Positions 8,152 to 55,346 of a stretch of 59,756 nt of DNA are shown here, one piece after another. The notes beneath the pieces are model-generated. The model was given only the letters and a program-made list of their open reading frames with translations. It was not told where the DNA came from and searched no databases. A program made the position numbers and the translations under genes. The first letter of the stretch is position 1, and every line of letters starts with the position of its first letter. The stretch comes from Candidatus Omnitrophota bacterium (GTDB lineage Bacteria > Omnitrophota > Gorgyraeia > Tantalellales > Tantalellaceae): contig JADGBR010000021.1 of NCBI GenBank assembly GCA_015231405.1, positions 1 through 59,756 of the forward strand, in the 5' to 3' direction.

Positions 8152-8274
8152 ATTAAAAAAACAAAAAGCGAGTTCGAGCGAGTAATGGCTTCTTTTTGGA
8201 GAATTGGTTTTTTATGCCTATTTTATAAAATAATTTATTATGTATGTGAAGAACTAACAACGAGGGTGATCATA

Positions 8275-26287: not shown

Positions 26288-26308
26288 TTATAGTATTTGG
26301 GAAAGTTT

Positions 26309-36044: not shown

Positions 36045-39000
36045 ATGTCTACTTTTTTAAAAAGATTAGTTTCTGTGATTACGCTCACGGCGTTCATTCT
36101 TACGAGCGCCTGGCCTTGGGATCTATTTATTGAGAAGGCACATGCCCAAAGGCCGGGGTTGAATAACTTCAATTACAGCGAACTTGCCGAAAAAACGGGT
36201 ATTATCAGAGAGGTTTTGACCGTCGATGGTTTCGAAATGCCCTCGACTTATTGCGAAATAAAGGATACTTTCGAAACGGCTTCCGCAGCAAAAGAAACGT
36301 TGCATTCCGATGATATAGCCATCATTCACATCCAGGACGCCCATTGCGATTATGCCGCCCAGCTCCGAATAAGTTCAATGCTAGAGTATCTGAACAAAAA
36401 ATACGGGGTGGACAGGGTGTATATGGAAGGGGGAGCGGGTGAGTATGACCTCTCGGTATTCAATACAACGGATAACGGAAAAATAAAACAGGCGGTCGCG
36501 GAGAATTTCATGAAGAACGGCGAGCTTTCGGGGGCCGAATACTACGCCGTCACTAATCCCGGTAAAGTCACACTTAGGGGTATCGAATATCCTGACCTGT
36601 ACATGAAGAACCTCAACGCTTATAGGGACATACTGCCCTATAGAAATGACGCTAGGCGGGCGCTTGACGCTTTCTATGCCGGGCTTGAGGGTATCAAAGA
36701 AGCATTCTTGAACGGGAAGCTGATCGGACTATATGAGAAATACAGGTCGTACCAGTCGGGGAAGATAGGGCTGGAAGAGTATTTCAGGTATTTGCCGGGC
36801 ATAATGGATGACGCGTCACTGGTCGGGCGTTTTCCGAATATGGCAAAACTGCGTGATGTTATAACTCTTGAGGACGGGATAGATTTTAAGAAAGCCGAAG
36901 CCGAAAGGGACATGATAATAAAGGAGCTCGAGAAAAAACTGTCTTTAAAAGAGATAGAGGAGCTATTGGTCAAATTCGCCGATTTCAAGTCCGGGAACAT
37001 AGACGATAAGGATTTCTACGGGTATTTACTCAGGAAGGCGGACTGCATATGCCTGGATCTCGTGGGATATCCGAACATTGAGAAATATTCTGAGTATATC
37101 GCGAAATACCGCGCGATAAACAACCCGGCATTATTCGAAGAGATAGAGAACGCGGCGTCGGATACGTGGAATAGGTGTTCGGAGAAGCCTGGGGAAAAAG
37201 AGTATTTCAGGTGGTTCAAGTGGCTGGGGATGATAGAGAGCGCCGTTAACGCCAAGCTCACTAAAAAAGACCATGACAGCATAATGTCGAGTAAAAAGGA
37301 TATGGACCTCACGGGCCTCGACGGGTTCATAGCGCTCCATGGCGGGAAGGGAGTAGAGGCCGGGGATATCGCGAACCTGCAAAAGTATCTGGCCGGCATG
37401 GAAAAGTTCTACGCATGCTCATTCGAGCGCGATAAAGCTTTCATATACAACCTCGAGTCCGATATCGAGGGTATTAGCGACGAGAAGAGGCGTGAAACAA
37501 AGGCCGTTGTGCTCATAACCGGAGGGTTCCACGCGGATAATCTAGCGAGCCTCATGAGGGAGAAAGGCATCCCGTACATAAGCCTAATGCCCAAGTTCAC
37601 GAGCGACCCCGATATCCCGAACCCGTATTACGAGATATTGGGCGGAGGATTTTCGGACGAGTTCATGAAATTCGCGAAGGTTTTGGGGATGGGAACGTCG
37701 ACGATAGCGATTGCCGACTTCGGCTCGAGCCTGGCGCGGGCGGCGAGGGGGAACGAGGCGGACCTGCTTGAGATAAAAGCGTGGCTGGAAATAAGGTCCC
37801 GCGAGCTTGGCGGGGTAAGGGTCGCTTCTGGCGGGAGGGACTGGTATTTCGATATCGGCGGCAGCGGGGATGTTGAGACAGTGGACCCGGCGGCGCGGGA
37901 TGTTTCAGGTTTTGTCGAGATCGACGCTACCTCTCTCTCTACGGCTCTGCTTGCTAAGGCAGAAACCGGCAAAGCCACTCCCGGAGTGGGACATGGTCAG
38001 GCGGCGCGGTCGGTGGCGGCGAATTGGGATGTGCTGTTCGATAACCCGTCATTGGGATGGACGAATAAAATTTCGCGGTTGATATTTCTCCCATCGACGG
38101 TTTTTCACGAGCTGGGGCATTTCTTCGCCGCAATAGCGGTATGGGTGTTTTCACCTATATTGGAACGGATGGGTATGATAAGAGTGAATATAGAGGACAA
38201 GCCAGGCTTTATGAACCCGATCAAACGGCTGGGGTATGGGAATGATCTGGCTCAATTCCTTCTTGATATACTCTATCGCGGTAATTTGTTCGGAGTTACA
38301 GGGGTAGCGAAGGAATTGGGTGGTGTAGCTGGAAACTGGGCGGCTGTTGGGGTATTCGGAGCCATCGCCATAGTCAGAGCGGTGTGGGGCTCTTCATGTC
38401 TCGATCCGTGGGTTATAATTACGGGCTATATAGGAATTATCAATGTGCTGTCGATAGGGTTTGAAGAATACGCTAAGGAAAAAGGGACGGGAGACCTGGC
38501 GTATTTTGGCGAACATGAGGTCTATAAAAGATTAAGGCCGGAGTTCGTTTCAGGGATGGTCAAAAGTCAAAAAGGTATCGTAATAGAAAGGATAAAAAGA
38601 ATTTTCCATGGTTACGGGTATTCGTCAAAAACGCTGGTTGAGTTCATTAATAAATTAGATGGCGCATGTTCCGACCACAATGAGGCCTTTAAAAGGATCG
38701 GAACGCTCAATAACATGATGGTTGAGACCGTTGAGGTTTTAGCGGGATCCGGCGTTTACTGGAAAAGGTCGGTAGACTTTTTTTTGAGCGCGGCGCTGGA
38801 CGTTGGTAAAATTCAAGACCTGGAACAATTCTGTAGAATAGCCGGATGGCTTGCAAGGGCTGGCGTACCGTTCGAAGTGATGGAGCGGTATTTCAGGGAA
38901 GAGATCGAGTCGCCGCGAGATATAATTATGGCATGGAAAGTATTTGATGAACTTGAGAAGAACGCCTCTCGGCCTTTCCAGGTCTTTCATGATCCGAGGG

Positions 39001-42000
39001 ATATCGGATGTGCCGAGGAGAGGACCAAATATATATTTTTAGAACTGCCCGGAATAATGCACCTGTCCAGGCAAAATGTGATTGAGGCGCTAGAACCTGC
39101 AAAAACCAGGGCTGAGGACGTAATCATGGGCCTTGAAGAATTGAAAAGATTCAGGAAACAGCACGAGGACCGGTTCTTCGATAGCCCGGGTCCGGATTTC
39201 ATGAAAAAAGTGGCGAAGGAGGTAAAAAGAGGATCTACTAGAGAAAAATATTTTCTCATGCAGATGTTCAACGGGCTGTGGGATAAGGCGGATGAATTGT
39301 CCGGTGACCCGGCAAAGTTAAGGGCGCTGCTTGATGGGGTCTTCAATGTTTATGGCTCTATGGGTGAAAAGATAAGGTTTGATCGTAACATGTATTTCTT
39401 AAATCATTTCTTCAGCCAGCTGGAAAAAGGCTATGGGCAAGCGTCGGATGATGAGGTAAAGCTGAGAGCGAAAGTAGAGAGGATGATAAAGACCCTGGCA
39501 GGAAGAGGATATTTCGATCCGGGCTCGGCGAAATTCTTTCCGGAAGTGTTCAATATACAGATCATCTCCGAGATCATCCTGGATTTTGGCAAGCACGCCC
39601 CCGAAGCGCTCGACATCTACATGTTCTTTATAGAGAAGGGCATGGTCGATACCGTGCCTCACCAACAGAGCATCCTCCCCTTGATGCGCCGTCTGGCCTT
39701 TGTTACGCCTATGGACGACATTAATGCCGGGGCCCTCACTAAGCTCCGTGAATTTCTTGAATCCTGGGTGGGGCTTGACAAGGCAAGGGCCGATGGCACT
39801 TACTATATGGAGCTCCTGGAGAGGCTTTTTGGGTCATGCCGGATGAGCTATATCTATATGCTTGAAAAGGCGGCTAGGGCCATGGGAAACGAGTTCAATA
39901 TAAATACCTGGTTAGATCTTAAGGAGATAGATGAAGTCTATTATAACTTAGGCCCGGTATTTCGGGAGACTAGGGAGCGTGTCAGTGAAACCGTCGAGTA
40001 TCTGGTCGGTAACGGATGCGTGAGAACAGATGAAGGCCTTAAAGAGCTGGTCTTGTTGCTTAAGCCCATAACCTTCGAAACGAAGATGGAAACTATTCCA
40101 AGGGATATCTTCAACGAGATCGTTTTTGGATATATCCGCGCTCTGGCGGTAAATCCCGATAATTACGGGAAGTTCATAGAGCTGATGAAGTCGGTGAAAA
40201 TGGGCCATAAGGTAAGCGCGGGTTTAAAGGAGGCCTTAACCGTCTGCATCGATGATGTTATTGAGCGGGAAGCGGATCCTGTATGTCTGGATCCGGGTAC
40301 CGTCATGTATATTGAGCGGGCACTGGTGGGTAAGACATCCGATCTGCTCAAGCTGGACTGGCAAGAGCAGAAACGCCTCGAAGAAAAATATAAGATCATG
40401 CTTAAACTCCACGTCCTTATGGTCGCCATGAAAGGGGAGGCTTTAACTGAAGACGAACTTATAATATTTTGCGCGGCAGGAAAAGCCTTCATGTATAAAG
40501 GAGGGACTATCCACATGGTCTTCAATGCGCTGAAACAGGCCCAAGGTCCTGGAAAACTGGCTAAATTGATCTTTGACCGTGAAATGGGTATGCCGAGTTA
40601 TCGGGCATATGTCCATATGAAAAAGCGTTTCAAAGGAACTGAGCTCGAAAATGAATTCGACGACTGTTTTATACAAAAAATGGATAATATCAAGAATCTG
40701 GCGTTAAGAAAAATTGTCTATAAGGAAGCGATGTCCGTTCTGGTGAAAAGCTTTGATATCGGATTTATGGCCAAAGGGAATTGCGAGGAATTAAGGGAGC
40801 TCATAAACTGCGTCATCGATAAGATCTCCGGCGATCCCGATATGGGTAAAGTAAAACAAGACATGGAAGCGAAAATTAAACAAATGTTCGGGAACTCATT
40901 TGAGAATATAACCCTGGCTAAGAACGCCATCGACAGTTTTACGGCTTTACCGCCGAATTATGTGACCATGTTAATGGCAACGAAAAATGAGGTATTCGGG
41001 TCCTATTTGGATGTTTTGAGAAAAGCCTATGAAAAAGGGTACTACACGGAAGGGCAGTTCGGAGCATGGGGGACGTTGATAATTGAAATTCTTGACGGCG
41101 CCATCGCGGGTGTGCTTGATCATGAGTTAAAGAAAAATCGGATCGGGAAAGCCGCGGACGCTTTAATGGGTATTTACGCGTGCAATAAAGAAATGTTCCG
41201 GGAGCCCGAGAAGTACGCGGAGCTCAGGGACCGGATCAAGGCACTGTTCGGGAAATTATCCGGATCGGGTGAGTATGATCTGATCACGGCTTTGGGCCAG
41301 GCGGGGTTCATGTCCGCGGAGAACATAACGTTCCTCATCGATAATTTTTCGGATATAAATAAATGCAAGGAAAAAATAGAGCAAAGGATCATGACCATGA
41401 AAGCCGGCGGCGAGATCCGGGAGAATATAACCAACGAAATAATGGAGCATCTCTTTAGCCGGTTCCCGGGGAAGATGGGGATGACGATCACGCGGATCTT
41501 AAAGGATCTCGATGATGACAATAGCTTCAGGGAAAAGTTCGATATCTTGTATGACAGTTACCTCGAAGACGAACTGTACGAGAGGCTTAAAGCCTCGCCG
41601 GGGTCGAGTGTTTATGATCACGCGCGCGCGGTGGAAAAACTGGCTTTAATAAAATCCGGCGCGAAATTGAGTGCGGGCGGGTATATATGCGATATGTTCT
41701 CAGTGATATTGGATAAGATCAACGAGGATAAGAGCGGAGAGCTAGCCCGTAAAATACTGGGCGTCAGCTTCGACGGTGAAAACGTGATATTTATCGATAG
41801 CGGCCTCGAAAGGCTTGAGGAGCTGATCAAAATGTGCGAGAGATCCTCGGATAGTACGTTCAAGACATTTAGTATAGGCTTAACGGAAGTGATATACAGG
41901 TATTTGGCAAATACGGTCAATGTTGAAGACGCCGGAAGCCTCGGGCAACTCAACGTCGACCTTTTATGCTCCGCGATATGTTTCCGGGACAGGATGTGGG

Positions 42001-45000
42001 ACGATACCCTTGACACCCTATTCCCGGCGATATTCTCTTCGGGGTATATGGCCGAAGATCAGATCCCCGCCATAAAGAGGTTTGTCAGGACATTGAGCTA
42101 TAACCGTGAAAACGCGGCAAGCCGTTTGGAGGTCTCGAAAGCTATCGGGGAATTATCCGGTACCCCCATCGGCCGGAAGATGCTGGACTATGACCTCTTT
42201 TCGCGCATGGCCGTGTCGGCGGAAGAAACGGTGATCGGCGAGGGAAGGTTAGGCGCGGTGAGGGTCTATTTAGAAATATTCAAGGCGATATCGGCGGGGA
42301 AAGCTCCCGAGGAGCTGGCTGACCCTGAATTATACAGATGCCTTACAGACGATGCGGATCAGATATCCGAGCTCGGGACGCCGCTCGTGACCTTGAACTT
42401 TATGGCGCTTGCTAAAGCTTTTGAAAGGGGTCTGGTGGATGAGAATAACTTCGGGGTTTTCATGGATGTCATAAAGTTGGCGTCTGATCTATTTAAGCAT
42501 GCCCCCTCTGTTAAGGATGGCTCCCCAGATGACAAGGGCCTGTTTCATAAGATCATCAATGATCTTATCGATAAAGCCGGGAAAGATGACATCGAAAAAA
42601 TACGGGCCTTGGTCGTGAAAACCTCGGTGCTCGTGGAAGCGCTGAGTTTTAAGGCGAACGATGGAAGGGACGCAATAGGCACCTTAAAAGACGCAGTGGA
42701 AGTTGGATCGCTTACTTTCGAGAATATCGGGGAATGGACGGACCTTGTCGGGGCGATAACCGGGAACAATGAAAAACGAGTGGAAATATTGGAGACGTTA
42801 CGAAAATTCGCCGTAGCCGTGAAAAACCGGGTCGAAGAGGCCGACCAAACGCTCAAGGTCTCGCCGCGAGTCCTTTCTCCGGTCCTCATTAAAGCTATAG
42901 TGGAAAAACACTCCGCGACATCGGATAAGCGATCGTTAAGCATGGCCTTTAAAGCGCTCATGGTCCTCAATGGCGACGGTGGGAACGAAGATAAGGAGAA
43001 GGAGATTGCCGCAGATTTCGAAAGGAAATACGAGAGCTCGAAAGGTTTCCAAGAGTCAGTCGGGCCAGGCGGGGCTTTTCTCGCCGCGTCCCAAAAATAT
43101 TTTCCGGTTAGTATGAGCCGCCCGGACGGAATGACTATGATACTCCAGCGGTGCGGTTATAGAACTCTCGGCGGTTTGAGGTTGTATCGGGAGATAAGAG
43201 AGGCTCTCAGGCTGGCTGGTCGAACGGACCTCGAGAAAATGATAGGAGATGAGTTCCTGTTGGACCTGGCGGATAAAGCCAAGGGGCATATTTCTCATCC
43301 GTTGAAGTTCATCCTGCATCTCGCTTACCGGCCTTTAAATGAAGGACTGGAGGAAAAAGATATGGTTAAATTCATATCTTTGGCCGGGACTGTCACCAAA
43401 ATGGCGCTTAAGGGCGAGAACGATATCAAGCGATCGGAAAAAAGCATTGAATACGGTTTTTGGATTTTGTACAGAATGCTTACGAATAATGTGATCAACC
43501 GCGATAACCTGGACCTGGTGAACGATCTGTTCACGGCCGCGGACAATAATAAGTTGAGCAGGGATTCGTTCCCGGTCATTGATAACATGGTCGAACGGAA
43601 AATGCTCGGAGCCGATAATGTCGGGACTATGGCGAAACTCTTCGGGATGAATAGCGGTGTTCTGTCAAAAGTCAACTTGACGACCATGAGAGCCGGCCTG
43701 GACGGGTCCAAGATGGGGATGTTCAGCCAGGAATTCATGGGTATTCTGATAGACAAGTTCCCGGATAAATTCGAAGAGATATGGAAACAAACTGAGGCCA
43801 TAATTGACTCCGCCCATGGGGTGAACGCCGAGGCGGGAAAGAACATGGACCCGAGCCTCGGGGATATGGATTTTATCCTGGGGATATTAAAAAAAATGTC
43901 GGTTATCGCGGACATGAAGCCTTCAAACACAGTGGGATCCAAGGCGGGCGAGATGGCGTTAATGATGCTGGAGACTATGTCTGCTCTGGGGAGGACCGGA
44001 GCCCTGAACAACGGGAATATAGAGTATTTCGGCAAGATCATCGAAAACCTGATGCGGGTAGGCGATAAGAACGCTATGATACAGAGCTTTAACTCACTGG
44101 CATTATATGTGAAGACGGTCGAAGCGGCTTGTACCCCGGGGGGAAGCGCCAAGGCTATGATATCGCCTGAGGGGTTGGCGGGTTTTACGGGTCGCGACGA
44201 CTTTAACCAGCCTGGATATCTTGATATTCTAACCAAAATATTCAACGAGTGGAAAGGTGAGTTCCCGGCCAATATCCTGGGCCAGCTTACCGGTAATGTT
44301 AATCTGGTGAGCAACTACTATAATGGGAAAAGACCCGTAAAGCCCAGAGTGGATGACTATATACAAATCGTGATCGAAAGGAGTTCGGACGGATATGTTC
44401 TGGACGCTATTAAATATCTTACCGAGACAGAAAGAGATCTTGACGATTCGGTATATGGCGATTATTTACGTCCGGAAGAGGTTCCAACTATCCATCAGGT
44501 AAAAGAGGAATTACGGTCAAAAGGGATAGAAGCCTTATGCGACGGTATTACATGCTCACGTGAAAAACCTCTCTCCTGGATGAATTCCGTCTACGCTTAT
44601 CTCAAGCTTATGAAAGAAGTGCCAAAGGCGAGGGGAATAACTTTCACCGAGTTCTGGAAGGTCGTCGCGAACAAGGACGCTAAGAGCCCGTCGAGAGAGC
44701 TTATCGAGACTTTCATCTTCGAAAAATTCTATATAGCGGAGGATGAAACCCCGCCTGATATACAGGAACAGATCATGGCTCTCAGTATCAACCTGAAGAA
44801 CGAGATGCAGCGGCTTTACAAGAAAATAAACCGCAAGGAACTCCCGCCGACGACTTTCAGGGAAATACGCATGTTCAATGTGCACTTTTCAGAGCATTAT
44901 CCCCGGGAAAAGGAAAAAGGGAACATAGTGAGGTTGTTTGTTCTCACGGCCCATAACATTTACGGAAGGCTTATCGTGGACAAAGAGACGAGAGAGGCCT

Positions 45001-48000
45001 TCCTTGACGGGCTCCTCAGGGCGATAAACCAGGGCGATACCCTTTTGGGTATAGCCCAGATGCAGGTTGAATCCGAGATCTTCAAGGACCCGGGGAGGTT
45101 CAGGGAACTTGTCGATAAAACCATATCGTACGCCCATTATAAGGACATAAATCCCGCTCTGCCTGGGCCGGGCGAGGATGTGCCCGCAAAAAGGAAAATA
45201 AGGGCTCTTATCGAACGGGCCAGCCAGGTATCAAATTCGCTGCTACTTATGCTCGGCGGGAACAGGGTGATGTTCCGTGACGTGATAAACGATATGTACG
45301 GAGAAAAGGATAAAGAGGTTATAGAACTTTCGATGAACGGGTTCACGAGGAGAAGGGAGCTATTCGGAATGTACGTGCCTAGCCAGAAGATGGATGAGGA
45401 GGAGATCTCGCGGTACGTAGATCATGCTCCGGATGAAAAGATCGAAGAAGCCTTAAAAGCGGTATGCGATATAGACGCGCGGATAGCGGCGCTTGATCTC
45501 GAGATCTCGAAAGTCGACGCCATGGATCCCGAGCGGGAGACAATAGTGGACCGCCTGAATGAGGAGAAGAGGATACTCAACCGTTTTCACGACGACTGGG
45601 ATAAGGATGGCGGCGCTAAGGAGCGCTCCACGGCAAGGTGGGCGGTAGCCATGTACCTGAAACACGGGGATAAATGGAGAGATTTCTTCAAGTGGGAGGA
45701 CGGAGTGATCTCGAAACTTGCCCGTAAGGCCAAAGCGGATCCGGGGCGGAAATTCTTCATAGTGTTCAACAACATCGAGGTATGCCCGCCATGGGTAAGG
45801 GTGCTCCTGAACCCGGTCCTTTGGGAAAAGAGTGTTGCTGTTCCCGTAACCGGCGAGGAGCTCGGGATACCCCAAAACCTGAACATGATATTCACCATGG
45901 ATAAAGACGCTGACCTCAAAGACCCGTCTTTCATGGACAGGCATCTCGTGCATGTGCCGGAAGGCGTCGACGATATAGACGAGCTCGGTTACCTGGCCTC
46001 TAAAGCTGTCGATCCCGCCGGTATATCCGGATTGAGCCCTCAGGCGGTCGCTAAACTGAAAGAGAAATTCGATAAGGTGAGAAAACTCGAGTTGTCCGAA
46101 GACGCCGGTGTGGGGCTTATCGACTTGATCGAGATAGCCAAGAGGGTAAAGGGGCTCATGAACGACGGGGCGAAACTCGGCGAGGACGAACTTATAGAGC
46201 GGGAAACCTACAATTATTTCCACTTGAGGCTTAAGAACAGGCACGACAGGGAAAAACTGAAAGAAGCGGTGATCCCGGGCGCGGATATCAATTCGCCTTT
46301 AATGAAACCCGCCCTGTCCATAGATATGCAAACGAGGACGATAGATTTTGACGGTGCCAGGGTCAATATGTCAGGTAAGTTCTATGAGTTCTGCCGGAGC
46401 CGGACCGATCTAAAAACTGATGACGCCCGGATACACGGGTTCTCGGGCTACATAGTGCAGGAACTCGAGAAAAGGATGTTCGCGCAGATAGCGCGCGCGT
46501 ACAAGTACGCCAATAAAGCCATGCAGATAGAAGGCCCTTCGGGTGAAGGTAAGACAGAGATCGGAAAAATATTCGCGCTTGTCACGGAGATAGATAACAA
46601 AGTCAATGAGAAGCTTGTTTCCGTCGAGACGGACCTCTCTGAATTCCGGGGGCAGGTGAGGCCTACCCGGAGGGGCGGCCAGTATTATCTCTACGAGCCG
46701 GAATATGTAAGGGACTTCCAGACCCCTGGGCATCTCTTCCTCATGAATGAGATAAACACGAACGCCGACAGCGCTTTGTATCACTGGTTATACCCTGAAA
46801 TATCGGGAAGCCGTTATAAGTGTCTTGCCGAATACGCCGGGGAAGGCGATGTTATAGCCAAAAGGCTGGCCATAGACCAGAATAACCTGTGGCTTTTTAC
46901 GGTCAACCCGGACACTATGGACGGACGCGTACCCCTTCCGCGAAGCATAGCGTGTCACCTCCCCGTATTTTACATGGCTACCGACGACGAAGACATACCG
47001 GCGTTCACCGAAAAGATCCTCGCCGGCGAGATCAAGGATATATCCCGCCTCGCCCATGACATGAAGAGTTACGTGGAGATATTGAGCAGCCTTTACATAG
47101 CGGTAAGGTCCGAGAAATTGAAGAACAATATGGAGTCGCCGCAGGATATAACTAAAAGAAGCATAATCGACGCCGCTAACGAGATGAACGAACTGCTTAA
47201 AAATAAGAGGAAGCTGTCCGGACGGGCAGTATTCAGGATGGCTGTCGAGAAATGTTTTATCAATAAATGGAAATCGGATAAGGATAAGTTTATCGTGAGG
47301 GAACTTGCCGAAAAAATAACGAAAGAGATGCTGGAAGAGGAAAAGGTCTTCGAGCGTGAGATAAAACCTGAGGAATATGACGAGATGGTTAAAGACGGCG
47401 TTAAAAGCCCCGCTGACGGCCGTTTCAGGCCAAGGATGTTCTTTGTGGATACGGCCACGAGGGATAGCGTCTCTTTCGAGAGAGAGATAGCGGGCCTCGC
47501 GGAAGGGGCGAAAACCCACGATATCATAATAAGTTTCGCGCACGGTAAAAGGCGGCTTATCGGCGGGTTCGTCCCTTCGGATGAGGATGAGATTTTCGAG
47601 GAGGCTTTAAAGCCTTTGAACGCTATCTCGCGGAAATTCCGAGGGGGTTTGGGTATTATTCCCGAGCTCATATTCGAGGCGAGGATGGACCCCTGGCGGA
47701 AGCATTGCGGCGTTTTCCATAATTACAACGACCTGAACCCCAAAGTCGCGCCTATGCTGAACGGGTTCCTTCAGACAGGCAAACTGGAGACCATAGAGAA
47801 CTATGTCGACGAAGGAGCGGCTGAAGAGCTTTTAAAGTCGTTCCGGGACAGCTGGGAAACTCTTTTAAGCCAGAGGGATATCCCCCGATGGATAAAGAAC
47901 GCGCTTCCATCGGAATATCCGCTCGAAGAAGGAGCCTTTAACAAAACTCTTTCGGATATAGGAGTGGACCTGGCCAAATGGTTCTATTCGAGCGCTCCGG

Positions 48001-51000
48001 CAAACCTCGACATAATCGCCGTATGCTCGTCGGTCGATGACGTGAACATCGGGTCCAGGCTGGGAGCGGCGGAATTCGACAGGTTCAGGGCTACGAACAT
48101 ATCGAGGGCTCTTGACGATAAGATCGTCATGGAGTACATCGATAAAAATATCCCGGTATCCCAGAGATCCGCGAAAGAACTTATCCTCGGCCGCGCCCTC
48201 GAGTGTTTCACGCTGCATAACGATCCGGAAATGCTGTCGAAATATGACGACCGGCCGATCATGTCGATAAAAGACCTGGAAGCGTACGTCAACGTGTTGA
48301 AGGATATAGCCGGAGGCGGGCTAAGAGGGGATGAGTTCGAAAAAGCGGTCAACGACGCCGCGTATTATACAATGGGTATAAGTCTCCGTCCCGAACAGCG
48401 TGGAAAACTTAAGTTCGTATACGATAAGGAAGGCCTCCGAAAAGAGATACCGTCCCGGGGCGGGGCGTTAAGCCTTACGGAAAACCTCGCGCTGCAGCTC
48501 AAGTTGATGGGGCTGGCGCGCGCTAATAATAAAGCCGATAATTTCATGCCGGTCATATTCGAAGGCGAGCCCGGTGGAGGTAAGACCGCCGCCTGCGAGG
48601 AGTTCGCGAAGCGGGAAGGCTTACCGATATATAAGGCCCTCATGTACCAGGATATAGATATAGGGGAGTTCCTGGGGAGAACCTCTAAAAAAGGCGAGAA
48701 GTTCGTGCTGACGACTACCGAGAAAGAGAAAATGGGAGACAAGCAAAGTTTTATACTGGATTTCCTCCGGGCCTATACGGAAGGAGGGGTGTTCCTTCTG
48801 GACGAAGGGGCCATGGGTTACGGGGCGCTTAAGATCATCAACTATCTGGTCGAGATATCCAAGCGAAAGACCTTCGACCTCGGGACATACCAGCCCGGGA
48901 TGGGCCTTGGGAGGCCTGAAGGTGTGATCACAAGGAGCAAGGACTTCATTCTGGTCATAGCCCAGAACCCCGCGGACAGCAACGAGGGAAGGATGAATTT
49001 GAGCCATGAAGTCGTTACTTCTTCCTTAAAGATGTGGGTAGACAATGTGCTCGGCAAGGATGACGCGGTGATGATAATAGACCACTATTTAGGCGGCGAG
49101 AAGGATAAAGTGGATATAAAGGTTAAGGAAAAGATAGCGCTTTTACACAATGAGTTCGTGAAAAGCCATCCTTTCCGTTATGAGCTCAGCCCGCGCCAGC
49201 TCATAAGAATAGCGAAAATAGCCGCCCGGGCAAGCGCATGCGGCGCCGATCTGAATAAGGCTATATTCGCCGGGGTAATGTTATCGTATATGTCGAGACT
49301 GCCCGAGGCGGAATTCCGGGATGAATGGGCGAAGGTCGAGAAGATAATGGGCGGCGAATACAGCTCGTATCTGGGGGATTGGGGTTCGAGGGTCAAACTT
49401 GGCGCCAATAGAGCGGACAGTTTCCTGGACTGGCTGGTCATCAATCCTTCAGCAACGTCCGGGAATATAGGCCGGAAAGACATGAGAATATTCGAGAGCA
49501 TGCCATCCGAGTCGAAGGCCCTCCGGCAGATAATACTTTCGATGCAGTTGGCCGAGCCGGTAGCGTTACTCGCGGAGGACGGCGCGGACAGCTATGACAT
49601 TGTAAAAAAAGCGTCGTATATAACCGGATATGAACTGGAGACCATGTGGGCGCATGAGCAGACGACCAGGAACCACATACTCTACAGTGTACTCCCGAAA
49701 TTCAAGAGCGCGTTCAATGACTTCGGGATAAAGGAGCAGGCATCCGGCGAGGAGTTCAAGCTGCGAGCCGGTTTTCTCTTAAGCAATATGATGACAAAAG
49801 AGGAATACGACAGGGAGAGCGCCCGCGGCGAACCGCATAAACACAAAATACTTTATTTCAGCATGATGGATTCCGTCCCCGAAAGGCAGAGGGTCCTCCT
49901 CAACGACATATTGACGAGAGGGGAGATAACAATACAGGATGAGACCGGCAGGCAGGTATTATATAAACTCCCGGAATGGATACATGTCGTCGTTTCGGCC
50001 GCGGAGGACCACAAATTTTCCTCGGCTTTTATTAACAGGTTCGTGCCGGTCAGGGTGAGTTCGATCATGAGCTATAAGCCCAGGGAGATAGAAGGGCTTA
50101 TAAGGTCCAGGTATAACCTCGTCCGGGACGACGAGCGTTCATGGCTATGGCAGGTATGCGCTTCGGTGAAAAATGACGATCTTAACAAAAAATTCGGTTT
50201 TAAATACGGGTTCTCCTCCCAGGATATATTGAAACTCGCCGAAACGCTGCACCTCGAGAAAGCCAGGGACATTAAGAACGGCAGTTACGCGGCGAGACCC
50301 TACAAAGAGATCTATTATTTTCTGAAGGCGGTATACCTCGTCTATTACGCGGGCATGGCCCCCGAAGACAGGGAGAAATTCGAGGCCGATATCTTCAAGG
50401 ACCTGGTCGAGGGGGTTTTAGGAAAGGAATATAAAGCCGAGGCTTTCAAGAGGATAATGACGAAGGCCATGGATGATATTACCAGAAGCCTGGAGGATGA
50501 GGGCGATGTATATTTCAATCGCGTCGAGCTGGATATGGATAAGCTGGATAGCGTCGGAGGTTATATTCTTCCCAGTGGAATTATGGTGAAGAGGCGGGAA
50601 GGCATGTTATTTGTCACGACTCCGGCTAAAAAATACGAAGGGATCGGAGAAGCCGCTTTAGCCGGAGCGCCGGTAAATGGGATCAGGTTATCCGAAGGGG
50701 TGTCGCTCCGGAATGACGCCGCGTCGGGGAAAACATATCTCGACCTTAAGCTTATCGGGTCTATGGGCGGAGTCAATATCCCCAGGGATAAATGGAACGC
50801 CGATTCCGCTCTCCCGGAAAGCGAGGTCGGGACGGATAAATTCATAAAATATGTCTCGCAGATAAGGCGCCTGGCGTCGGTCATACTCAGGTCATGGCAG
50901 AGGGTGGAAGTGTTTGACGGCCAGGTACGGCCCCCGAGGACGGTCTTTATTAACGGCGAGACCGGTACGGCTAAGACGTCGTTCATAAGGAACCTCGCGG

Positions 51001-54000
51001 TCGTATGGGGTGTTCCGCTATATACGATCAACGCGGATTCAGAATTGAAAGTGAGCGATATGACGGTGGGTATGAAGATGGAAGCGGGGAAGTTCGAGCT
51101 GGGGATAAAGGAGTTCCTCGCCAGATGCGGCACGATCAACGGAAAAAGGATAAAGATACCCAATAAGAGCGATTCCAACAGGAAAATACTCCTTATAGAC
51201 GAGGCCAACGCCACCAAGGAGATCCTTGGCGCGCTCATGCCGATAATGAGGGGTGAAAAGAGGTTCTCCATATATTATGCCGGCGAGAAGCTTGACGTCG
51301 AGCTTGACAGCGAGGTGCTCCTCGTTTTCACTTTCAACCCCGCGGAGAAATACTCGGCGCGCGCCGAGATCCCCAGAGAAGTGAGCGCCTATGCGGATAA
51401 GATATGGGCTCCCGACCCTATGGATTATTCGGACCCCGAGCTTATGGAGATACTCAGGGTTCTGTACGCGCGCGGGATAAACCGCGCCCAAAGGGATAAG
51501 AAAGGGGAGAAGGAGGAGGCAGTCGAGGTGAAGATCGCCGCGGAAGGCGAGTACCATGAGGTAGAGTCCGTGCCGGTCAGAGTGGCGACGGAGCTTCAGC
51601 ATCCGCCGGTCGAGATGACGATAACGGAGCTGTTGGAGAAGGAGATCACGGACGGTGAGATTGAGAAAGAGGCAGTTGAGGGCATGGGGCCCTCCTCCGC
51701 CGAGGCTTCGGAGGGCGAGCATGGGGCAGGAGGCATGGGGCAGGGAGGCGAGAAAACAGTGAAAGAGGTTGATTATGACAAACAAAAAATAGAGGATTCG
51801 GCGAGGGCTATTGTCGAAGGGCGGGAATCGGGGGCTTTGTATTTCGCCAGGAATGTCATGCATGATTATCTTTTGGCGCTTACCAACGGACTAAAGGATA
51901 AGAAGTATGTCGATCTGGTGAATGAGGCCGCGAGGAAGATAGATCCGGAGATAGAGGCGGTCGTGGATAAGATACGAAAGATCTACTCTGAAAGGCAAGT
52001 CATGTCAACCGATCTAAAGGAAGCGTTATTCGAGTTAAGGCGCACTTTCGTCAAACATGATGTTTATGTATTCATGTTCCTCCTGAAAAAACCGCGCCGG
52101 GCTTTTGTGGAGACTTTTGCCGAGAAGATAGAGAGGGATAAGGAATTCTCTATGAGAAAAGAGCATTTCGAGAAGATAGGCCTGGTTTCGGACGGCAAGG
52201 AAAGATTGTATCTTGAACCGGACGGTTCGGTGAGAGACATAAGAGCTTTTATACTTGAAGGGAATGAGTATACTGAGGAAGGGTCGCTCGCTTATTTTGA
52301 GGGTGAATACGCGGTAGTTTTTCGAAGCAGTATCGAAAAAAGCGTAGCCCCTCCGGGAGTCGATAAGCTCGAACCGACGAGATGGGCGGCCTGGCATGAG
52401 ATGGGGCATGTGGTGGACCAGATGAGGAATAGGAGAGCGAGGATGAACCCCGACCCGGATCCTTTCACTATCCCGAATAACGGGGAACAGAACTCGATGT
52501 TGTTCCCGCTCATTTTCAGCGAATACTCGAGAGAATACCTCAAATACGAATTGTTCAGGCGTTTGACCGCCGCGCCTAACCCGGAAGATAAGTACTGGCA
52601 GGCGTGTAAGGGGATATTTAACGGGATCATTAAGATATCCGGACTTGAAGGCGAGCTGGGAGGGTATATAGAAGACAGTTTTGATCCTGTGATCCGCGCG
52701 CGGGCCTTGGCTTTGCTCCAAATAATAACGGATAACAGGGATGGCATATTCACATCAGGGTATCTTAACGATATAGCCGCCGTGATGTACAAAGATCCCG
52801 TGAATTATTTATGGTCGGTCGGTAAAGGGAAAATACGCGGTAAATGCGTTAGAGGAGAGGACGGCTACGAATCGATCCTCCAGGGCGTCGATGGTTCGTC
52901 CGAGATAGAGATGGAATATGTCGACGGGGAAGACGGACTCGAAGTGAAGGCGCCTGAGCCGGAAGATGAGGACGGGACTCCCGAGTATATCGACGAACCC
53001 GCCGAAGGAGGTTGGGGAGAGGGCGGGGAGGAGGAAGGGGAGGAGCATGGGGAAGAGGGCATGGAGCATGGAGCAGGGGGCATGGAGAAGGGGGGAGAGG
53101 AAGAGGGGAAGGCTGGACAGCCTCCCGTAAAGCCTCCGAAGCGGCGGAAGGCGGGTGATCCGAAGATAGGGAAGGTTATCGTAAGTAAACCGGATGTCAC
53201 CGGACCCCTGGCCCGGATTGACAGGATGACGAGGAGCCAGGTCGAAAAATGGCTCGAGATCTTCACCGGCCGGCCGATCATCGTGCCTATACCTTCCGAG
53301 GAGGGAGACGAGCCTGTAATAGAGAAGGTCGCCGAGCAGGACCCGGAGTGTTTTAAGAGGGAAGTCACGGTAAGGCCCAAGGCGTCCATCAGTTGCGGGA
53401 TAACCGTTGATATAAGCGGCAGTACAGGATACCGCGATGAGGAAGGACGGTGCCTGCTTGACAGGTTCATGGAGATGACGACATTGTATACAAGCCTTCT
53501 CTATGGCGCCGCTAAATCCAATAATGAGGTCGAGTTCTCGCTGGGCGCGGTAGGCGATCATTATTACAACATACTGGATTTCAAAAGATCGAGGGATGAA
53601 AAAGCTGTCAGGGCGGCCGTAAAAGAGGTCGAGAGTAAAAGCAAGGTCGACGGGGGAGGTATAAACACTCTTTCGGTGCTCGACGGGATAAGGGATAAAT
53701 ACAAATCTCAGAGGTCGAAGAAGAATAAACTGGAGATCATATTCACTGACGGCGGTGAATGCTGCGGTATGGCTCCGGATGATCTTAGGAAAGAGATAAG
53801 GAAGGTCGAATCGGAGCTGGGGATAAGCATAGTATTTGTTGGGATAGGCGTGTCGGCGGCGGATGTGAAGGAATACCCGACTTATCTGCATCTCCAAAAG
53901 GAGTACGGTGACAAACCCCCGGACCCTGCCGAGATGTTGAGGGTGATAATGGGGATATCCAGGCTGAAAGTGAGAGGCCGGCTTTCCAGGGAAAGGGACA

Positions 54001-55346
54001 TAGGGCCGCTCCTCGGATACGAGCGGTCCGCGCCCGAGGTGAAACACGTTACCGATCGAGTCAGGTCATATTATGCCTCATATCTCGCTATGGCGACTTC
54101 GTCCCTTATGAAAGTAGGTATAGCGAATAAATATTTACGCGGGGCGTGGTGGGCATTGAACCTTTCACAGCTCGTATTTCACGAGCCGGGACATTTGATG
54201 TCAGGGGCGGTGAAAAATATTAAGGCGATCATGACCGGAGAAGAAAAATTGAGTTTAAGGTCAGCGGCCGTAAATACCGCGAGGGCCATTTGGCGGGGTG
54301 AGATCGATAAACCCCTCCCGGCTTTCGCCGATAAGTACGGAGGGATCATCGGTAATATTACGGGCTTACTGATCGGCGGAGGCTTAGTAGTAAGCCTTTC
54401 GTATCTTGCCCCCGGTGCGCTGACGATCTTTTTCGTTAAAGCCATATCCTCCTGGATCATGATAATGAACACCCTGGAACTATCCGCCCAACTGGTTTCT
54501 CCTGGATCAGATCTCAATCGTCCACGAACCACTAATCACGAACCGCGAACCACAAGCGCCGCGCCTCATCGCTTTGATCCGGAGACAACCGCGAAATCAA
54601 CCCAAACAGCATCCGGAACAAATATTATCGAAACACAAATCCCCATCGGTGAAAAGCCCGAAAAGGAGGAGACAGTCGTCGATAAAGCCGCCGGCATTCT
54701 AAGGAACATCCTCTCGATGGTCAGGTTTCCGTCCGAAAAGACCGTTATCTATCTGCCATCGGTGAAAGACGGCACTTTCGGGGAAGAAGAGGCAAATAAA
54801 AGACTGATGGGAGTGTACAAAAAATTGAGGGACAAGGCCAGGGACGGGTACGATATGCGCAATATCACCGTTAGGTTCTATGATGACGGGTACTTTGAGA
54901 CATCAAGGAAGGGGGAAGGCCTTGTTCTTGCCGAGAAGATCCGGGAAGATACGCGTGATCCGGGTTCAAGGGTGTTCATCTATTCAAGGGAGGAGCGATA
55001 TGACGCCGTTAAGGGCGCTATCCCCGAAGCTCTTACGGAAAGGGTAACGGCCGTCAGGGAAAAAGTAACGAACGAGCTCTCGCTCACTATGGTCCATACC
55101 CGCGTAGCTCTCGCGGTGGCGCTACTCACGATAAAACGGAATGACAAAGATACGGGGGACCTTACGAACAACATCCTTAGCTTGTTCGAACTGCTCGGCG
55201 GGGAGGATACCGCCCGGGCGATCAGGGAAGACAAGGACGCCTTAAAGAAGATCCTCTCGGGAGCACTCCTTATCGAACTGAAACCGTTCTCCGAAGAGAT
55301 CGGTGAACAGATGGAAGCGATAGAGGCCGTCGCGACGTCGCTTTAA
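36045..55346 (+). CDS. 6,433-residue midasin-like giant: TraB-like, six AAA modules, zincin, VWA
   Basis: AAGGGA precedes the ATG. A signal peptide ends around residue 35 (EKAHA-QRP). A TraB/ChaN-like module runs from H95 (HIQDAH) to H496 (TGGFH). HELGH at 688-692, followed by hydrophobic segments (about 765-806), resembles a membrane zincin. Residues 900-3200 are helical and unrecognised. Six AAA modules alternate: degenerate (FFIVFNNIE, 3237), intact (GPSGEGKT 3497; FLMNEIN), degenerate (GVFHNYND, 3889), intact (GEPGGGKT 4174; FLLDEGA), degenerate (ILYFSMMD, 4602), intact (GETGTAKT 4971; LLIDEAN). HEMGH follows at 5451-5455, then an acidic Gly/Glu linker and a VWA domain (DISGS 5789, TDGG 5901). 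HEPGH at 6046 with hydrophobic helices and a C-terminal tail finish it. Six AAA modules, acidic linker and MIDAS are the plan of midasin; the signal peptide and zincin-like sites are not. ATP supply and topology are unresolved. Confidence 0.93.
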   Translation: MSTFLKRLVSVITLTAFILTSAWPWDLFIEKAHAQRPGLNNFNYSELAEKTGIIREVLTVDGFEMPSTYCEIKDTFETASAAKETLHSDDIAIIHIQDAHCDYAAQLRISSMLEYLNKKYGVDRVYMEGGAGEYDLSVFNTTDNGKIKQAVAENFMKNGELSGAEYYAVTNPGKVTLRGIEYPDLYMKNLNAYRDILPYRNDARRALDAFYAGLEGIKEAFLNGKLIGLYEKYRSYQSGKIGLEEYFRYLPGIMDDASLVGRFPNMAKLRDVITLEDGIDFKKAEAERDMIIKELEKKLSLKEIEELLVKFADFKSGNIDDKDFYGYLLRKADCICLDLVGYPNIEKYSEYIAKYRAINNPALFEEIENAASDTWNRCSEKPGEKEYFRWFKWLGMIESAVNAKLTKKDHDSIMSSKKDMDLTGLDGFIALHGGKGVEAGDIANLQKYLAGMEKFYACSFERDKAFIYNLESDIEGISDEKRRETKAVVLITGGFHADNLASLMREKGIPYISLMPKFTSDPDIPNPYYEILGGGFSDEFMKFAKVLGMGTSTIAIADFGSSLARAARGNEADLLEIKAWLEIRSRELGGVRVASGGRDWYFDIGGSGDVETVDPAARDVSGFVEIDATSLSTALLAKAETGKATPGVGHGQAARSVAANWDVLFDNPSLGWTNKISRLIFLPSTVFHELGHFFAAIAVWVFSPILERMGMIRVNIEDKPGFMNPIKRLGYGNDLAQFLLDILYRGNLFGVTGVAKELGGVAGNWAAVGVFGAIAIVRAVWGSSCLDPWVIITGYIGIINVLSIGFEEYAKEKGTGDLAYFGEHEVYKRLRPEFVSGMVKSQKGIVIERIKRIFHGYGYSSKTLVEFINKLDGACSDHNEAFKRIGTLNNMMVETVEVLAGSGVYWKRSVDFFLSAALDVGKIQDLEQFCRIAGWLARAGVPFEVMERYFREEIESPRDIIMAWKVFDELEKNASRPFQVFHDPRDIGCAEERTKYIFLELPGIMHLSRQNVIEALEPAKTRAEDVIMGLEELKRFRKQHEDRFFDSPGPDFMKKVAKEVKRGSTREKYFLMQMFNGLWDKADELSGDPAKLRALLDGVFNVYGSMGEKIRFDRNMYFLNHFFSQLEKGYGQASDDEVKLRAKVERMIKTLAGRGYFDPGSAKFFPEVFNIQIISEIILDFGKHAPEALDIYMFFIEKGMVDTVPHQQSILPLMRRLAFVTPMDDINAGALTKLREFLESWVGLDKARADGTYYMELLERLFGSCRMSYIYMLEKAARAMGNEFNINTWLDLKEIDEVYYNLGPVFRETRERVSETVEYLVGNGCVRTDEGLKELVLLLKPITFETKMETIPRDIFNEIVFGYIRALAVNPDNYGKFIELMKSVKMGHKVSAGLKEALTVCIDDVIEREADPVCLDPGTVMYIERALVGKTSDLLKLDWQEQKRLEEKYKIMLKLHVLMVAMKGEALTEDELIIFCAAGKAFMYKGGTIHMVFNALKQAQGPGKLAKLIFDREMGMPSYRAYVHMKKRFKGTELENEFDDCFIQKMDNIKNLALRKIVYKEAMSVLVKSFDIGFMAKGNCEELRELINCVIDKISGDPDMGKVKQDMEAKIKQMFGNSFENITLAKNAIDSFTALPPNYVTMLMATKNEVFGSYLDVLRKAYEKGYYTEGQFGAWGTLIIEILDGAIAGVLDHELKKNRIGKAADALMGIYACNKEMFREPEKYAELRDRIKALFGKLSGSGEYDLITALGQAGFMSAENITFLIDNFSDINKCKEKIEQRIMTMKAGGEIRENITNEIMEHLFSRFPGKMGMTITRILKDLDDDNSFREKFDILYDSYLEDELYERLKASPGSSVYDHARAVEKLALIKSGAKLSAGGYICDMFSVILDKINEDKSGELARKILGVSFDGENVIFIDSGLERLEELIKMCERSSDSTFKTFSIGLTEVIYRYLANTVNVEDAGSLGQLNVDLLCSAICFRDRMWDDTLDTLFPAIFSSGYMAEDQIPAIKRFVRTLSYNRENAASRLEVSKAIGELSGTPIGRKMLDYDLFSRMAVSAEETVIGEGRLGAVRVYLEIFKAISAGKAPEELADPELYRCLTDDADQISELGTPLVTLNFMALAKAFERGLVDENNFGVFMDVIKLASDLFKHAPSVKDGSPDDKGLFHKIINDLIDKAGKDDIEKIRALVVKTSVLVEALSFKANDGRDAIGTLKDAVEVGSLTFENIGEWTDLVGAITGNNEKRVEILETLRKFAVAVKNRVEEADQTLKVSPRVLSPVLIKAIVEKHSATSDKRSLSMAFKALMVLNGDGGNEDKEKEIAADFERKYESSKGFQESVGPGGAFLAASQKYFPVSMSRPDGMTMILQRCGYRTLGGLRLYREIREALRLAGRTDLEKMIGDEFLLDLADKAKGHISHPLKFILHLAYRPLNEGLEEKDMVKFISLAGTVTKMALKGENDIKRSEKSIEYGFWILYRMLTNNVINRDNLDLVNDLFTAADNNKLSRDSFPVIDNMVERKMLGADNVGTMAKLFGMNSGVLSKVNLTTMRAGLDGSKMGMFSQEFMGILIDKFPDKFEEIWKQTEAIIDSAHGVNAEAGKNMDPSLGDMDFILGILKKMSVIADMKPSNTVGSKAGEMALMMLETMSALGRTGALNNGNIEYFGKIIENLMRVGDKNAMIQSFNSLALYVKTVEAACTPGGSAKAMISPEGLAGFTGRDDFNQPGYLDILTKIFNEWKGEFPANILGQLTGNVNLVSNYYNGKRPVKPRVDDYIQIVIERSSDGYVLDAIKYLTETERDLDDSVYGDYLRPEEVPTIHQVKEELRSKGIEALCDGITCSREKPLSWMNSVYAYLKLMKEVPKARGITFTEFWKVVANKDAKSPSRELIETFIFEKFYIAEDETPPDIQEQIMALSINLKNEMQRLYKKINRKELPPTTFREIRMFNVHFSEHYPREKEKGNIVRLFVLTAHNIYGRLIVDKETREAFLDGLLRAINQGDTLLGIAQMQVESEIFKDPGRFRELVDKTISYAHYKDINPALPGPGEDVPAKRKIRALIERASQVSNSLLLMLGGNRVMFRDVINDMYGEKDKEVIELSMNGFTRRRELFGMYVPSQKMDEEEISRYVDHAPDEKIEEALKAVCDIDARIAALDLEISKVDAMDPERETIVDRLNEEKRILNRFHDDWDKDGGAKERSTARWAVAMYLKHGDKWRDFFKWEDGVISKLARKAKADPGRKFFIVFNNIEVCPPWVRVLLNPVLWEKSVAVPVTGEELGIPQNLNMIFTMDKDADLKDPSFMDRHLVHVPEGVDDIDELGYLASKAVDPAGISGLSPQAVAKLKEKFDKVRKLELSEDAGVGLIDLIEIAKRVKGLMNDGAKLGEDELIERETYNYFHLRLKNRHDREKLKEAVIPGADINSPLMKPALSIDMQTRTIDFDGARVNMSGKFYEFCRSRTDLKTDDARIHGFSGYIVQELEKRMFAQIARAYKYANKAMQIEGPSGEGKTEIGKIFALVTEIDNKVNEKLVSVETDLSEFRGQVRPTRRGGQYYLYEPEYVRDFQTPGHLFLMNEINTNADSALYHWLYPEISGSRYKCLAEYAGEGDVIAKRLAIDQNNLWLFTVNPDTMDGRVPLPRSIACHLPVFYMATDDEDIPAFTEKILAGEIKDISRLAHDMKSYVEILSSLYIAVRSEKLKNNMESPQDITKRSIIDAANEMNELLKNKRKLSGRAVFRMAVEKCFINKWKSDKDKFIVRELAEKITKEMLEEEKVFEREIKPEEYDEMVKDGVKSPADGRFRPRMFFVDTATRDSVSFEREIAGLAEGAKTHDIIISFAHGKRRLIGGFVPSDEDEIFEEALKPLNAISRKFRGGLGIIPELIFEARMDPWRKHCGVFHNYNDLNPKVAPMLNGFLQTGKLETIENYVDEGAAEELLKSFRDSWETLLSQRDIPRWIKNALPSEYPLEEGAFNKTLSDIGVDLAKWFYSSAPANLDIIAVCSSVDDVNIGSRLGAAEFDRFRATNISRALDDKIVMEYIDKNIPVSQRSAKELILGRALECFTLHNDPEMLSKYDDRPIMSIKDLEAYVNVLKDIAGGGLRGDEFEKAVNDAAYYTMGISLRPEQRGKLKFVYDKEGLRKEIPSRGGALSLTENLALQLKLMGLARANNKADNFMPVIFEGEPGGGKTAACEEFAKREGLPIYKALMYQDIDIGEFLGRTSKKGEKFVLTTTEKEKMGDKQSFILDFLRAYTEGGVFLLDEGAMGYGALKIINYLVEISKRKTFDLGTYQPGMGLGRPEGVITRSKDFILVIAQNPADSNEGRMNLSHEVVTSSLKMWVDNVLGKDDAVMIIDHYLGGEKDKVDIKVKEKIALLHNEFVKSHPFRYELSPRQLIRIAKIAARASACGADLNKAIFAGVMLSYMSRLPEAEFRDEWAKVEKIMGGEYSSYLGDWGSRVKLGANRADSFLDWLVINPSATSGNIGRKDMRIFESMPSESKALRQIILSMQLAEPVALLAEDGADSYDIVKKASYITGYELETMWAHEQTTRNHILYSVLPKFKSAFNDFGIKEQASGEEFKLRAGFLLSNMMTKEEYDRESARGEPHKHKILYFSMMDSVPERQRVLLNDILTRGEITIQDETGRQVLYKLPEWIHVVVSAAEDHKFSSAFINRFVPVRVSSIMSYKPREIEGLIRSRYNLVRDDERSWLWQVCASVKNDDLNKKFGFKYGFSSQDILKLAETLHLEKARDIKNGSYAARPYKEIYYFLKAVYLVYYAGMAPEDREKFEADIFKDLVEGVLGKEYKAEAFKRIMTKAMDDITRSLEDEGDVYFNRVELDMDKLDSVGGYILPSGIMVKRREGMLFVTTPAKKYEGIGEAALAGAPVNGIRLSEGVSLRNDAASGKTYLDLKLIGSMGGVNIPRDKWNADSALPESEVGTDKFIKYVSQIRRLASVILRSWQRVEVFDGQVRPPRTVFINGETGTAKTSFIRNLAVVWGVPLYTINADSELKVSDMTVGMKMEAGKFELGIKEFLARCGTINGKRIKIPNKSDSNRKILLIDEANATKEILGALMPIMRGEKRFSIYYAGEKLDVELDSEVLLVFTFNPAEKYSARAEIPREVSAYADKIWAPDPMDYSDPELMEILRVLYARGINRAQRDKKGEKEEAVEVKIAAEGEYHEVESVPVRVATELQHPPVEMTITELLEKEITDGEIEKEAVEGMGPSSAEASEGEHGAGGMGQGGEKTVKEVDYDKQKIEDSARAIVEGRESGALYFARNVMHDYLLALTNGLKDKKYVDLVNEAARKIDPEIEAVVDKIRKIYSERQVMSTDLKEALFELRRTFVKHDVYVFMFLLKKPRRAFVETFAEKIERDKEFSMRKEHFEKIGLVSDGKERLYLEPDGSVRDIRAFILEGNEYTEEGSLAYFEGEYAVVFRSSIEKSVAPPGVDKLEPTRWAAWHEMGHVVDQMRNRRARMNPDPDPFTIPNNGEQNSMLFPLIFSEYSREYLKYELFRRLTAAPNPEDKYWQACKGIFNGIIKISGLEGELGGYIEDSFDPVIRARALALLQIITDNRDGIFTSGYLNDIAAVMYKDPVNYLWSVGKGKIRGKCVRGEDGYESILQGVDGSSEIEMEYVDGEDGLEVKAPEPEDEDGTPEYIDEPAEGGWGEGGEEEGEEHGEEGMEHGAGGMEKGGEEEGKAGQPPVKPPKRRKAGDPKIGKVIVSKPDVTGPLARIDRMTRSQVEKWLEIFTGRPIIVPIPSEEGDEPVIEKVAEQDPECFKREVTVRPKASISCGITVDISGSTGYRDEEGRCLLDRFMEMTTLYTSLLYGAAKSNNEVEFSLGAVGDHYYNILDFKRSRDEKAVRAAVKEVESKSKVDGGGINTLSVLDGIRDKYKSQRSKKNKLEIIFTDGGECCGMAPDDLRKEIRKVESELGISIVFVGIGVSAADVKEYPTYLHLQKEYGDKPPDPAEMLRVIMGISRLKVRGRLSRERDIGPLLGYERSAPEVKHVTDRVRSYYASYLAMATSSLMKVGIANKYLRGAWWALNLSQLVFHEPGHLMSGAVKNIKAIMTGEEKLSLRSAAVNTARAIWRGEIDKPLPAFADKYGGIIGNITGLLIGGGLVVSLSYLAPGALTIFFVKAISSWIMIMNTLELSAQLVSPGSDLNRPRTTNHEPRTTSAAPHRFDPETTAKSTQTASGTNIIETQIPIGEKPEKEETVVDKAAGILRNILSMVRFPSEKTVIYLPSVKDGTFGEEEANKRLMGVYKKLRDKARDGYDMRNITVRFYDDGYFETSRKGEGLVLAEKIREDTRDPGSRVFIYSREERYDAVKGAIPEALTERVTAVREKVTNELSLTMVHTRVALAVALLTIKRNDKDTGDLTNNILSLFELLGGEDTARAIREDKDALKKILSGALLIELKPFSEEIGEQMEAIEAVATSL
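51690..51715. repeat. In-frame palindromic repeat in the AAA-zincin linker
   Basis: CCCTCC and GGAGGG ends enclose TCCGCCGAGGCTTC. The encoded PSSAEASEG sits in a Glu/Gly-rich stretch next to GCATGGGG repeats, between AAA module six and the HEMGH domain. It belongs to the same kind of dispersed repeat as 23891-23980. Confidence 0.55.
53011..53112. repeat. GGCATGGAG/GGGGAGGAG low-complexity tract encoding the acidic linker
   Basis: Degenerate tandem units built on GCATGG(A/G)G and GAGGAGG encode a Gly-Glu-His-Met linker just before the VWA domain. The low-complexity DNA appears to have been used to lengthen the acidic linker. Confidence 0.6.
54519..54553. repeat. In-frame ACGAACCAC repeat near the C-terminus
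   Basis: Degenerate ACGAACC(A/G)C units, complementary in type to 26228-26252, encode a PRTTNHEPRTT peptide between the last hydrophobic segment and the C-terminal module. It looks like an inserted dispersed repeat tolerated as a linker. Confidence 0.6.

Follow-up and report, generated by a model that had tools for sequence, protein, structure and literature searches.

The 59,756-nucleotide contig JADGBR010000021.1 (assembly GCA_015231405.1) of a Candidatus Omnitrophota bacterium, analyzed here as one entire contig and referred to as the window, belongs to a genome of 3.66 Mb that is 96% complete. On its plus strand, positions 36045-55346 hold an uninterrupted open reading frame (ORF) encoding a protein of 6,433 amino acids, with an ATG start and an AAGGGA-like ribosome site upstream. 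A sequence-only reading had given this protein the plan of midasin: a single chain with six AAA modules (M1-M6), then an acidic linker and a VWA domain with a metal-ion-dependent adhesion site (MIDAS). The features of the ORF are as follows.

36045..55346, plus strand: whole ORF, with signal segment, N-terminal domain, helical middle, predicted six-AAA ring, zincin-like domain, VWA domain and C-terminal membrane-like segment
36045..36149 (residues 1-35), plus strand: signal-peptide-like N-terminus, with KR, a hydrophobic core and AHA before Q36
36165..37868 (residues 41-608), plus strand: N-terminal domain with conserved H/E/H motifs, common to dozens of giants in the genome
38070..38519 (residues 676-825), plus strand: membrane-like HELGH segment (HEIGH in the downstream paralogue) with GGVAGN, GTGD and three hydrophobic peaks
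45180..46241 (residues 3046-3399), plus strand: M1, degenerate AAA module without Walker A, arginine finger R3299
46413..47306 (residues 3457-3754), plus strand: M2, canonical AAA module, Walker A GPSGEGKT, Walker B ending in NE rather than DE
47367..48374 (residues 3775-4110), plus strand: M3, degenerate AAA module, arginine finger R4013
48447..49397 (residues 4135-4451), plus strand: M4, canonical AAA module, GEPGGGKT and FLLDE
49500..50399 (residues 4486-4785), plus strand: M5, degenerate AAA module, arginine finger R4665
50787..51533 (residues 4915-5163), plus strand: M6, canonical AAA module, GETGTAKT and LLIDE
51762..52964 (residues 5240-5640), plus strand: zincin-like domain, HEMGH at 52395-52409 (residues 5451-5455) and a conserved NxExxS downstream
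52962..53114 (about residues 5640-5690), plus strand: short acidic, glycine-rich linker of about 50 residues, assigned from sequence
53352..53954, plus strand: VWA domain with MIDAS, comprising VDISGS at 53406-53423, the T in GGGINT and the D in TDGG
54132..54494, plus strand: second membrane-like HExxH segment, with HEPGH, GGIIGN and PGSD

A Pfam scan matched AAA_5 at three places in the protein (E 1.9e-23), and profiles built for each module placed all six at residues 3046-5163. In profile-profile alignments, the canonical modules M2, M4 and M6 matched one another (E 3e-16 to 1.5e-21), as did the degenerate modules M1, M3 and M5 (E 1.4e-9 to 1.8e-12); weak links joined the two classes (M5-M6, E 1.4e-6; M4-M5, E 1.7e-4), and control segments showed no match to the AAA modules. 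Hidden Markov model scores reproduced the same two classes. When searched alone against the PDB, M5 had midasin as its sole significant match (E 3.6e-11), and M1 had no significant match. Scans with PADLOC and NCBIfam returned only weak P-loop matches.

AlphaFold modeling was performed on two triplets, M1-M3 (predicted local distance difference test score, pLDDT, 73; predicted template modeling score, pTM, 0.68) and M4-M6 (pLDDT 66, pTM 0.66), and in both the modules show an alpha-beta core with a helical lid. For each triplet model, the best PDB matches found by Foldseek were dynein motor domains, aligned over more than 1,000 columns and three consecutive modules (E 1.7e-22 and 6e-21), with a template modeling score of 0.4-0.5, so that the positions of the modules relative to each other are inexact. 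Judging from profiles and models together, M1, M3 and M5 are genuine AAA folds, and we hold the structure-level claims on this protein with high confidence. The six modules proposed by the sequence-only reading thus stand; structure prediction of the AAA region and profile searches for AAA and VWA domains, which were among the checks it had suggested, both gave positive results. A GLAEGAKT motif in M3 (near residue 3817) was considered as a P-loop and rejected: it is not conserved, and the model places it away from the P-loop position, in the stretch that joins alpha-1 to beta-2.

Catalytic residues were counted in up to 21 sequences per module, divergent paralogues and relatives included. The Walker A lysine is kept in all 59 canonical sequences (M2 20/20, M4 19/19, M6 20/20); M1, M3 and M5 have no Walker A motif at the corresponding place. 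The arginine finger, defined as the arginine that ends the helix before strand 5 and set by alignment to the NRF of midasin, is present in all 60 degenerate sequences (M1 19/19, M3 20/20, M5 21/21) and in 4 of 57 canonical ones (M2 0/20, M4 4/19, M6 0/18). In AAA proteins, a neighboring module supplies the arginine finger that completes a site (PMC4047620). This rule and the alternation of Walker A and arginine finger together yield three composite sites, 2/3, 4/5 and 6/1, their direction (site of module n with finger of module n+1) being assumed as in dynein. Site 6/1 implies a closed ring, because the finger of M1 would be partnerless in every member unless M6 meets M1. We therefore consider it very probable that the chain closes into a ring with three composite ATP sites, which would then act as an ATPase.

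The giant size, the export signal and the VWA domain would also suit a non-motor scaffold or adhesin in which the AAA modules are purely structural. Such a role is highly improbable, since about 20 diverged members retain, without exception, the Walker A lysine and the arginine fingers in complementary places, and selection on structure alone leaves this complementary invariance unexplained.

Against the PDB, the canonical modules match midasin best by far (4e-83 summed; best single module 63.6 bits), with NorQ (40.9 bits) and dynein behind; the single-module MoxR-type proteins of the same genome that were tested reached at most 26 bits. In three trees, M2/M4/M6 formed one clade against AAA2-6 of yeast and fission-yeast midasin and a MoxR (support 96/96, 95/97 and 98/97), and M1/M3/M5 formed another (100/99); these trees have one outgroup, long branches and midasin segments that come from printed alignments. 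The modules do not group one-to-one with individual midasin modules, M2/M4/M6 forming a single clade without midasin AAA2-6. Grouping of the even bacterial modules with the odd midasin modules had a support of 41/41 and grouping with the even ones an approximately unbiased test value (p-AU) of 0.14, a correspondence being shown for neither; midasin AAA3 grouped weakly with M1/M3/M5 (82/70), which was not used as evidence. Based on these sequences, the simplest history would be that a pair of finger donor and ATP binder was triplicated within the family.

The PDB match and the shared VWA C-terminus speak for a true bacterial midasin homologue, descended directly from midasin's six-module ancestor. 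This origin is disfavored and very unlikely: the M2/M4/M6 clade excludes all sampled midasin modules (98/97), so that the array looks independently built, and the AAA2-5 segments of midasin in the printed alignments keep both P-loop and arginine finger. Moreover, the long linker is absent here, as are the midasin lid families AAA_lid_5 and AAA_lid_7, which gave no match at E<=1 in the 6,433-residue protein and do not occur among the families listed for its relatives. Of the two origins between which the sequence-only reading had left the choice, the clades and the catalytic pattern thus favor an independent bacterial route to a six-AAA chain over a common six-module ancestor. With midasin ahead of all other PDB matches by a wide margin, the two may still go back to a single-module or pair ancestor that they share within the midasin/dynein branch of MoxR-type AAA proteins.

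About 20 chains, every one of them from Omnitrophota, conserve the six-AAA architecture. These homologues, which come from this genome as well as from other members of the phylum, are about 3,000-6,400 amino acids long, and the order M1-M6, HExxH, VWA is kept in own-genome paralogues and relatives; the genome itself has about eight copies or part-copies. With the AAA4-6 part of the alignment as query, a strong M4-M6 match was found in 12 of 384 genomes of the phylum, all of one class. A scan of 84,980 species had only Omnitrophota among the matches listed, and viral, phage and plasmid collections contained no relative. In the literature searched, we found no description of a bacterial six-AAA/VWA chain; Omnitrophota giant proteins have been described as having few annotated domains (PMC10066038). 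Some members (L049, L050 and L126) have about 900-2,300 residues inserted between M4 and M5, and one (L055; G000, contig C2, 50109-67911) is split there into two overlapping frames, by a frameshift, an assembly error or a real split. Two further giants of 6,951 and 5,197 amino acids (L051-L054; G000, contig C33, 51552-72410, and contig C55, 106055-121666) have strong AAA_5 matches and were not recognized by the six module profiles; they perhaps represent another multi-AAA family.

The VWA domain scored 25.5 bits against a Pfam cut-off of 23.8 when the C-terminal part was scanned alone, and its MIDAS (DISGS...T...TDGG) is complete and conserved, in agreement with the sequence-only reading. The acidic linker proposed there does exist, but it spans only about 50 residues; approximately 400 of the residues between ring and VWA form a conserved HExxH domain. 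In a six-sequence alignment of this zincin-like domain (HExGH), the H, E, H and downstream E are invariant. Nearly every member has an HExxH motif separating M6 from VWA, in the form HExRH in divergent ones, and L069 has an insertion. The domain matched no Pfam family, and no known family was found for the helical middle. Zincin-like sites had also been predicted for this protein, and HExxH is indeed present at residues 688, 5451 and 6046. The segments around residues 688 and 6046, with GG(V/I)xGN and G(T/S)D, appear to resemble membrane metalloprotease cores. For the HELGH segment, which has its motifs kept in the tandem paralogue only (as HEIGH, with GGVAGN and GTGD), the resemblance may be to a site-2-protease-type core; no relative of the second segment was found outside the 6,433-residue protein.

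A signal-like start, positively charged and then hydrophobic, was found by simple n/h/c scoring in each of the 11 family members whose N-terminus is complete, as expected for the signal peptide suggested earlier. The domain that follows comprises about 530 residues with the motifs IQDAHCNY..Q, EGG.G.YD, GAE, G.ED..LY..NL and TGGFH. It heads about 36 ORFs of the genome (L088-L122) of up to 8,035 amino acids, which sum to about 100,000 amino acids or about 8% of the genome, and 103 of 193 genomes of the phylum have it, both within ORFs of up to 35,113 amino acids and as stand-alone proteins of about 530. No relative was found in Pfam or the PDB; its H/E/H pattern presumably recalls ChaN/EreA/TraB. 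The domain may be a common leader of Omnitrophota giant proteins.

Work outside the cytoplasm has slightly better than an even chance for this protein. The wide occurrence of the leader domain would also suit a secreted effector acting on host or prey cells and powered by the ATP of its target, as one payload variant of a giant exported family with a common leader; Omnitrophota have been proposed to be predatory or host-dependent, and their giant ORFs to act in symbiosis (PMC10066038). However, neither a delivery system nor a host was identified in this analysis, and some six-AAA relatives (L064, C11a) are without the leader domain, which makes such an effector improbable. A cytoplasm-facing machine is conceivable but rather unlikely. 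Here, the HELGH segment would place the ring in the cytoplasm, with ATP at hand, and the second segment would anchor the C-terminus; like a membrane AAA protease, the machine would assemble or quality-control envelope complexes. Two membrane-like HExxH segments do flank the ring, the first with three hydrophobic peaks. Both are just marginally hydrophobic, however, and relatives such as L064 are without them, having the signal segment and no other hydrophobic stretch above threshold.

An envelope-located or secreted, single-chain ATP-driven remodeling machine is the reading we adopt, with about an even chance of being right. In such a machine, the six AAA modules would close into a pseudo-hexameric ring in which a pair of finger donor and ATP binder is repeated three times. 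ATP would be bound at M2, M4 and M6 only, in sites completed by the fingers of M3, M5 and M1. On the C-terminal arm, the VWA MIDAS would capture a substrate or dock on the ring, in the manner of midasin and NorQ-NorD; a VWA finger inside the AAA pore is reported for these two systems (PMC13036017). Ring motion would strain or unfold the captured partner, which the zincin would cut. Coupling of the remodeler to proteolysis in this way has slightly less than an even chance. Going further, the lineage might have independently triplicated a catalytic/non-catalytic pair, F1-like with three active and three finger-donating modules, and have come to use it outside the cytoplasm or in another cell as an ATP-driven unfoldase with metalloprotease and MIDAS capture, a scenario that we regard as speculative and unlikely as a whole.

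Several observations weigh against the remodeling machine. In the core set, M2 is without the first aspartate of Walker B, and one site may therefore bind nucleotide without efficient hydrolysis. The ring was predicted as two separate triplets, in models of moderate confidence. One member, C11a, has no HExxH between M6 and VWA, so that proteolysis is not universal in the family. The signal peptide conflicts with an ATPase function, as ATP is normally absent outside the cytoplasm, unless membrane segments bring the ring back into the cytoplasm or a host cell is the place of action.

The window holds two further members of the family, both on the plus strand and both incomplete.

1..8004, plus strand: C-terminal part of a further family member, with M5, M6, HEMRH and two DxSGS sites, 5' end truncated at the contig edge
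56310..59756, plus strand: N-terminal part of a tandem paralogue, 57% identical to residues 1-1113 of the 6,433-residue protein, running off the contig

Another contig of the genome (C64, L012; 6,017 bases, both ends open) is 69% identical to residues 2889-4858 and, by this similarity, may be the missing middle of the tandem paralogue. Elsewhere in the window lie a 3,760-residue giant (8185-19467) that has the same N-terminal domain, followed by M48 peptidase and ABC1 kinase-like matches, a B12-binding/radical SAM protein with a signal-like N-terminus (26297-30310) and a PKD-repeat protein (30734-33253).

The 6,433-residue protein is real, conserved and unlikely to be ordinary. To our knowledge, rings of six AAA modules on one chain have been regarded as peculiar to two eukaryotic proteins, midasin and dynein. 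If a bacterial family built its own by triplicating a pair, it would be a second, simpler case of a hexameric motor turned hetero-hexameric on one chain, in which alternating modules have taken over either Walker A or the arginine finger. The family offers a first catalytic reading for some of the unexplained Omnitrophota giants, many of which the N-terminal domain ties into one family, and it raises the question of how an apparently exported motor uses ATP.

Apart from this family, only the eukaryotic proteins midasin and dynein are known to have such a layout, which was apparently invented separately here. Like midasin, the protein combines in one chain six MoxR/dynein/midasin-type AAA modules and a C-terminal VWA domain with MIDAS, and to this extent the proposed midasin plan was correct; the long linker, the large D/E-rich region and the midasin lids were not found, the pattern of sites is different and the modules are not orthologous. 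In midasin, AAA2-5 are needed and AAA1 has no arginine finger (PMC6920918), whereas here M2/M4/M6 bind and M1/M3/M5 give fingers, and the nucleotide sites are not AAA2-AAA5. The distance from M6 to VWA is about 610 residues, mostly zincin-like, compared with a linker of about 1,700 residues with a D/E-rich region in midasin. The signal segment and the zincin-like domain between ring and VWA set the two further apart, and midasin acts on pre-60S ribosomal particles, which the bacterium does not have. Dynein likewise has six AAA modules in one chain and is the best fold match of both triplets, but it differs in its set of active modules and in the VWA domain present here; neither AAA_6 (at most 15 bits in the 6,433-residue protein, cut-off 25) nor AAA_7 rose above its cut-off, and no linker, stalk or microtubule-binding family was found with Pfam. 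The other Omnitrophota giants, such as that of Velamenicoccus archaeovorus with 39,678 amino acids, are alike in phylum and size, but in the papers searched we did not find a six-AAA/VWA architecture described for them. As in FtsH-type AAA proteases, an AAA ring and an HExxH metalloprotease site are combined in one chain; unlike FtsH/M41, the modules belong to another AAA clade, and the protease, with its conserved HExGH and no Pfam peptidase family match, precedes the VWA domain. NorQ-NorD, CbbQ, RavA-ViaA and other MoxR-VWA pairs also have an AAA_5-type ATPase that works with a VWA/MIDAS partner, but there identical single-module subunits assemble into the hexamer and the VWA domain sits on another protein, whereas in the Omnitrophota chain the modules and the VWA domain are fused and diversified.
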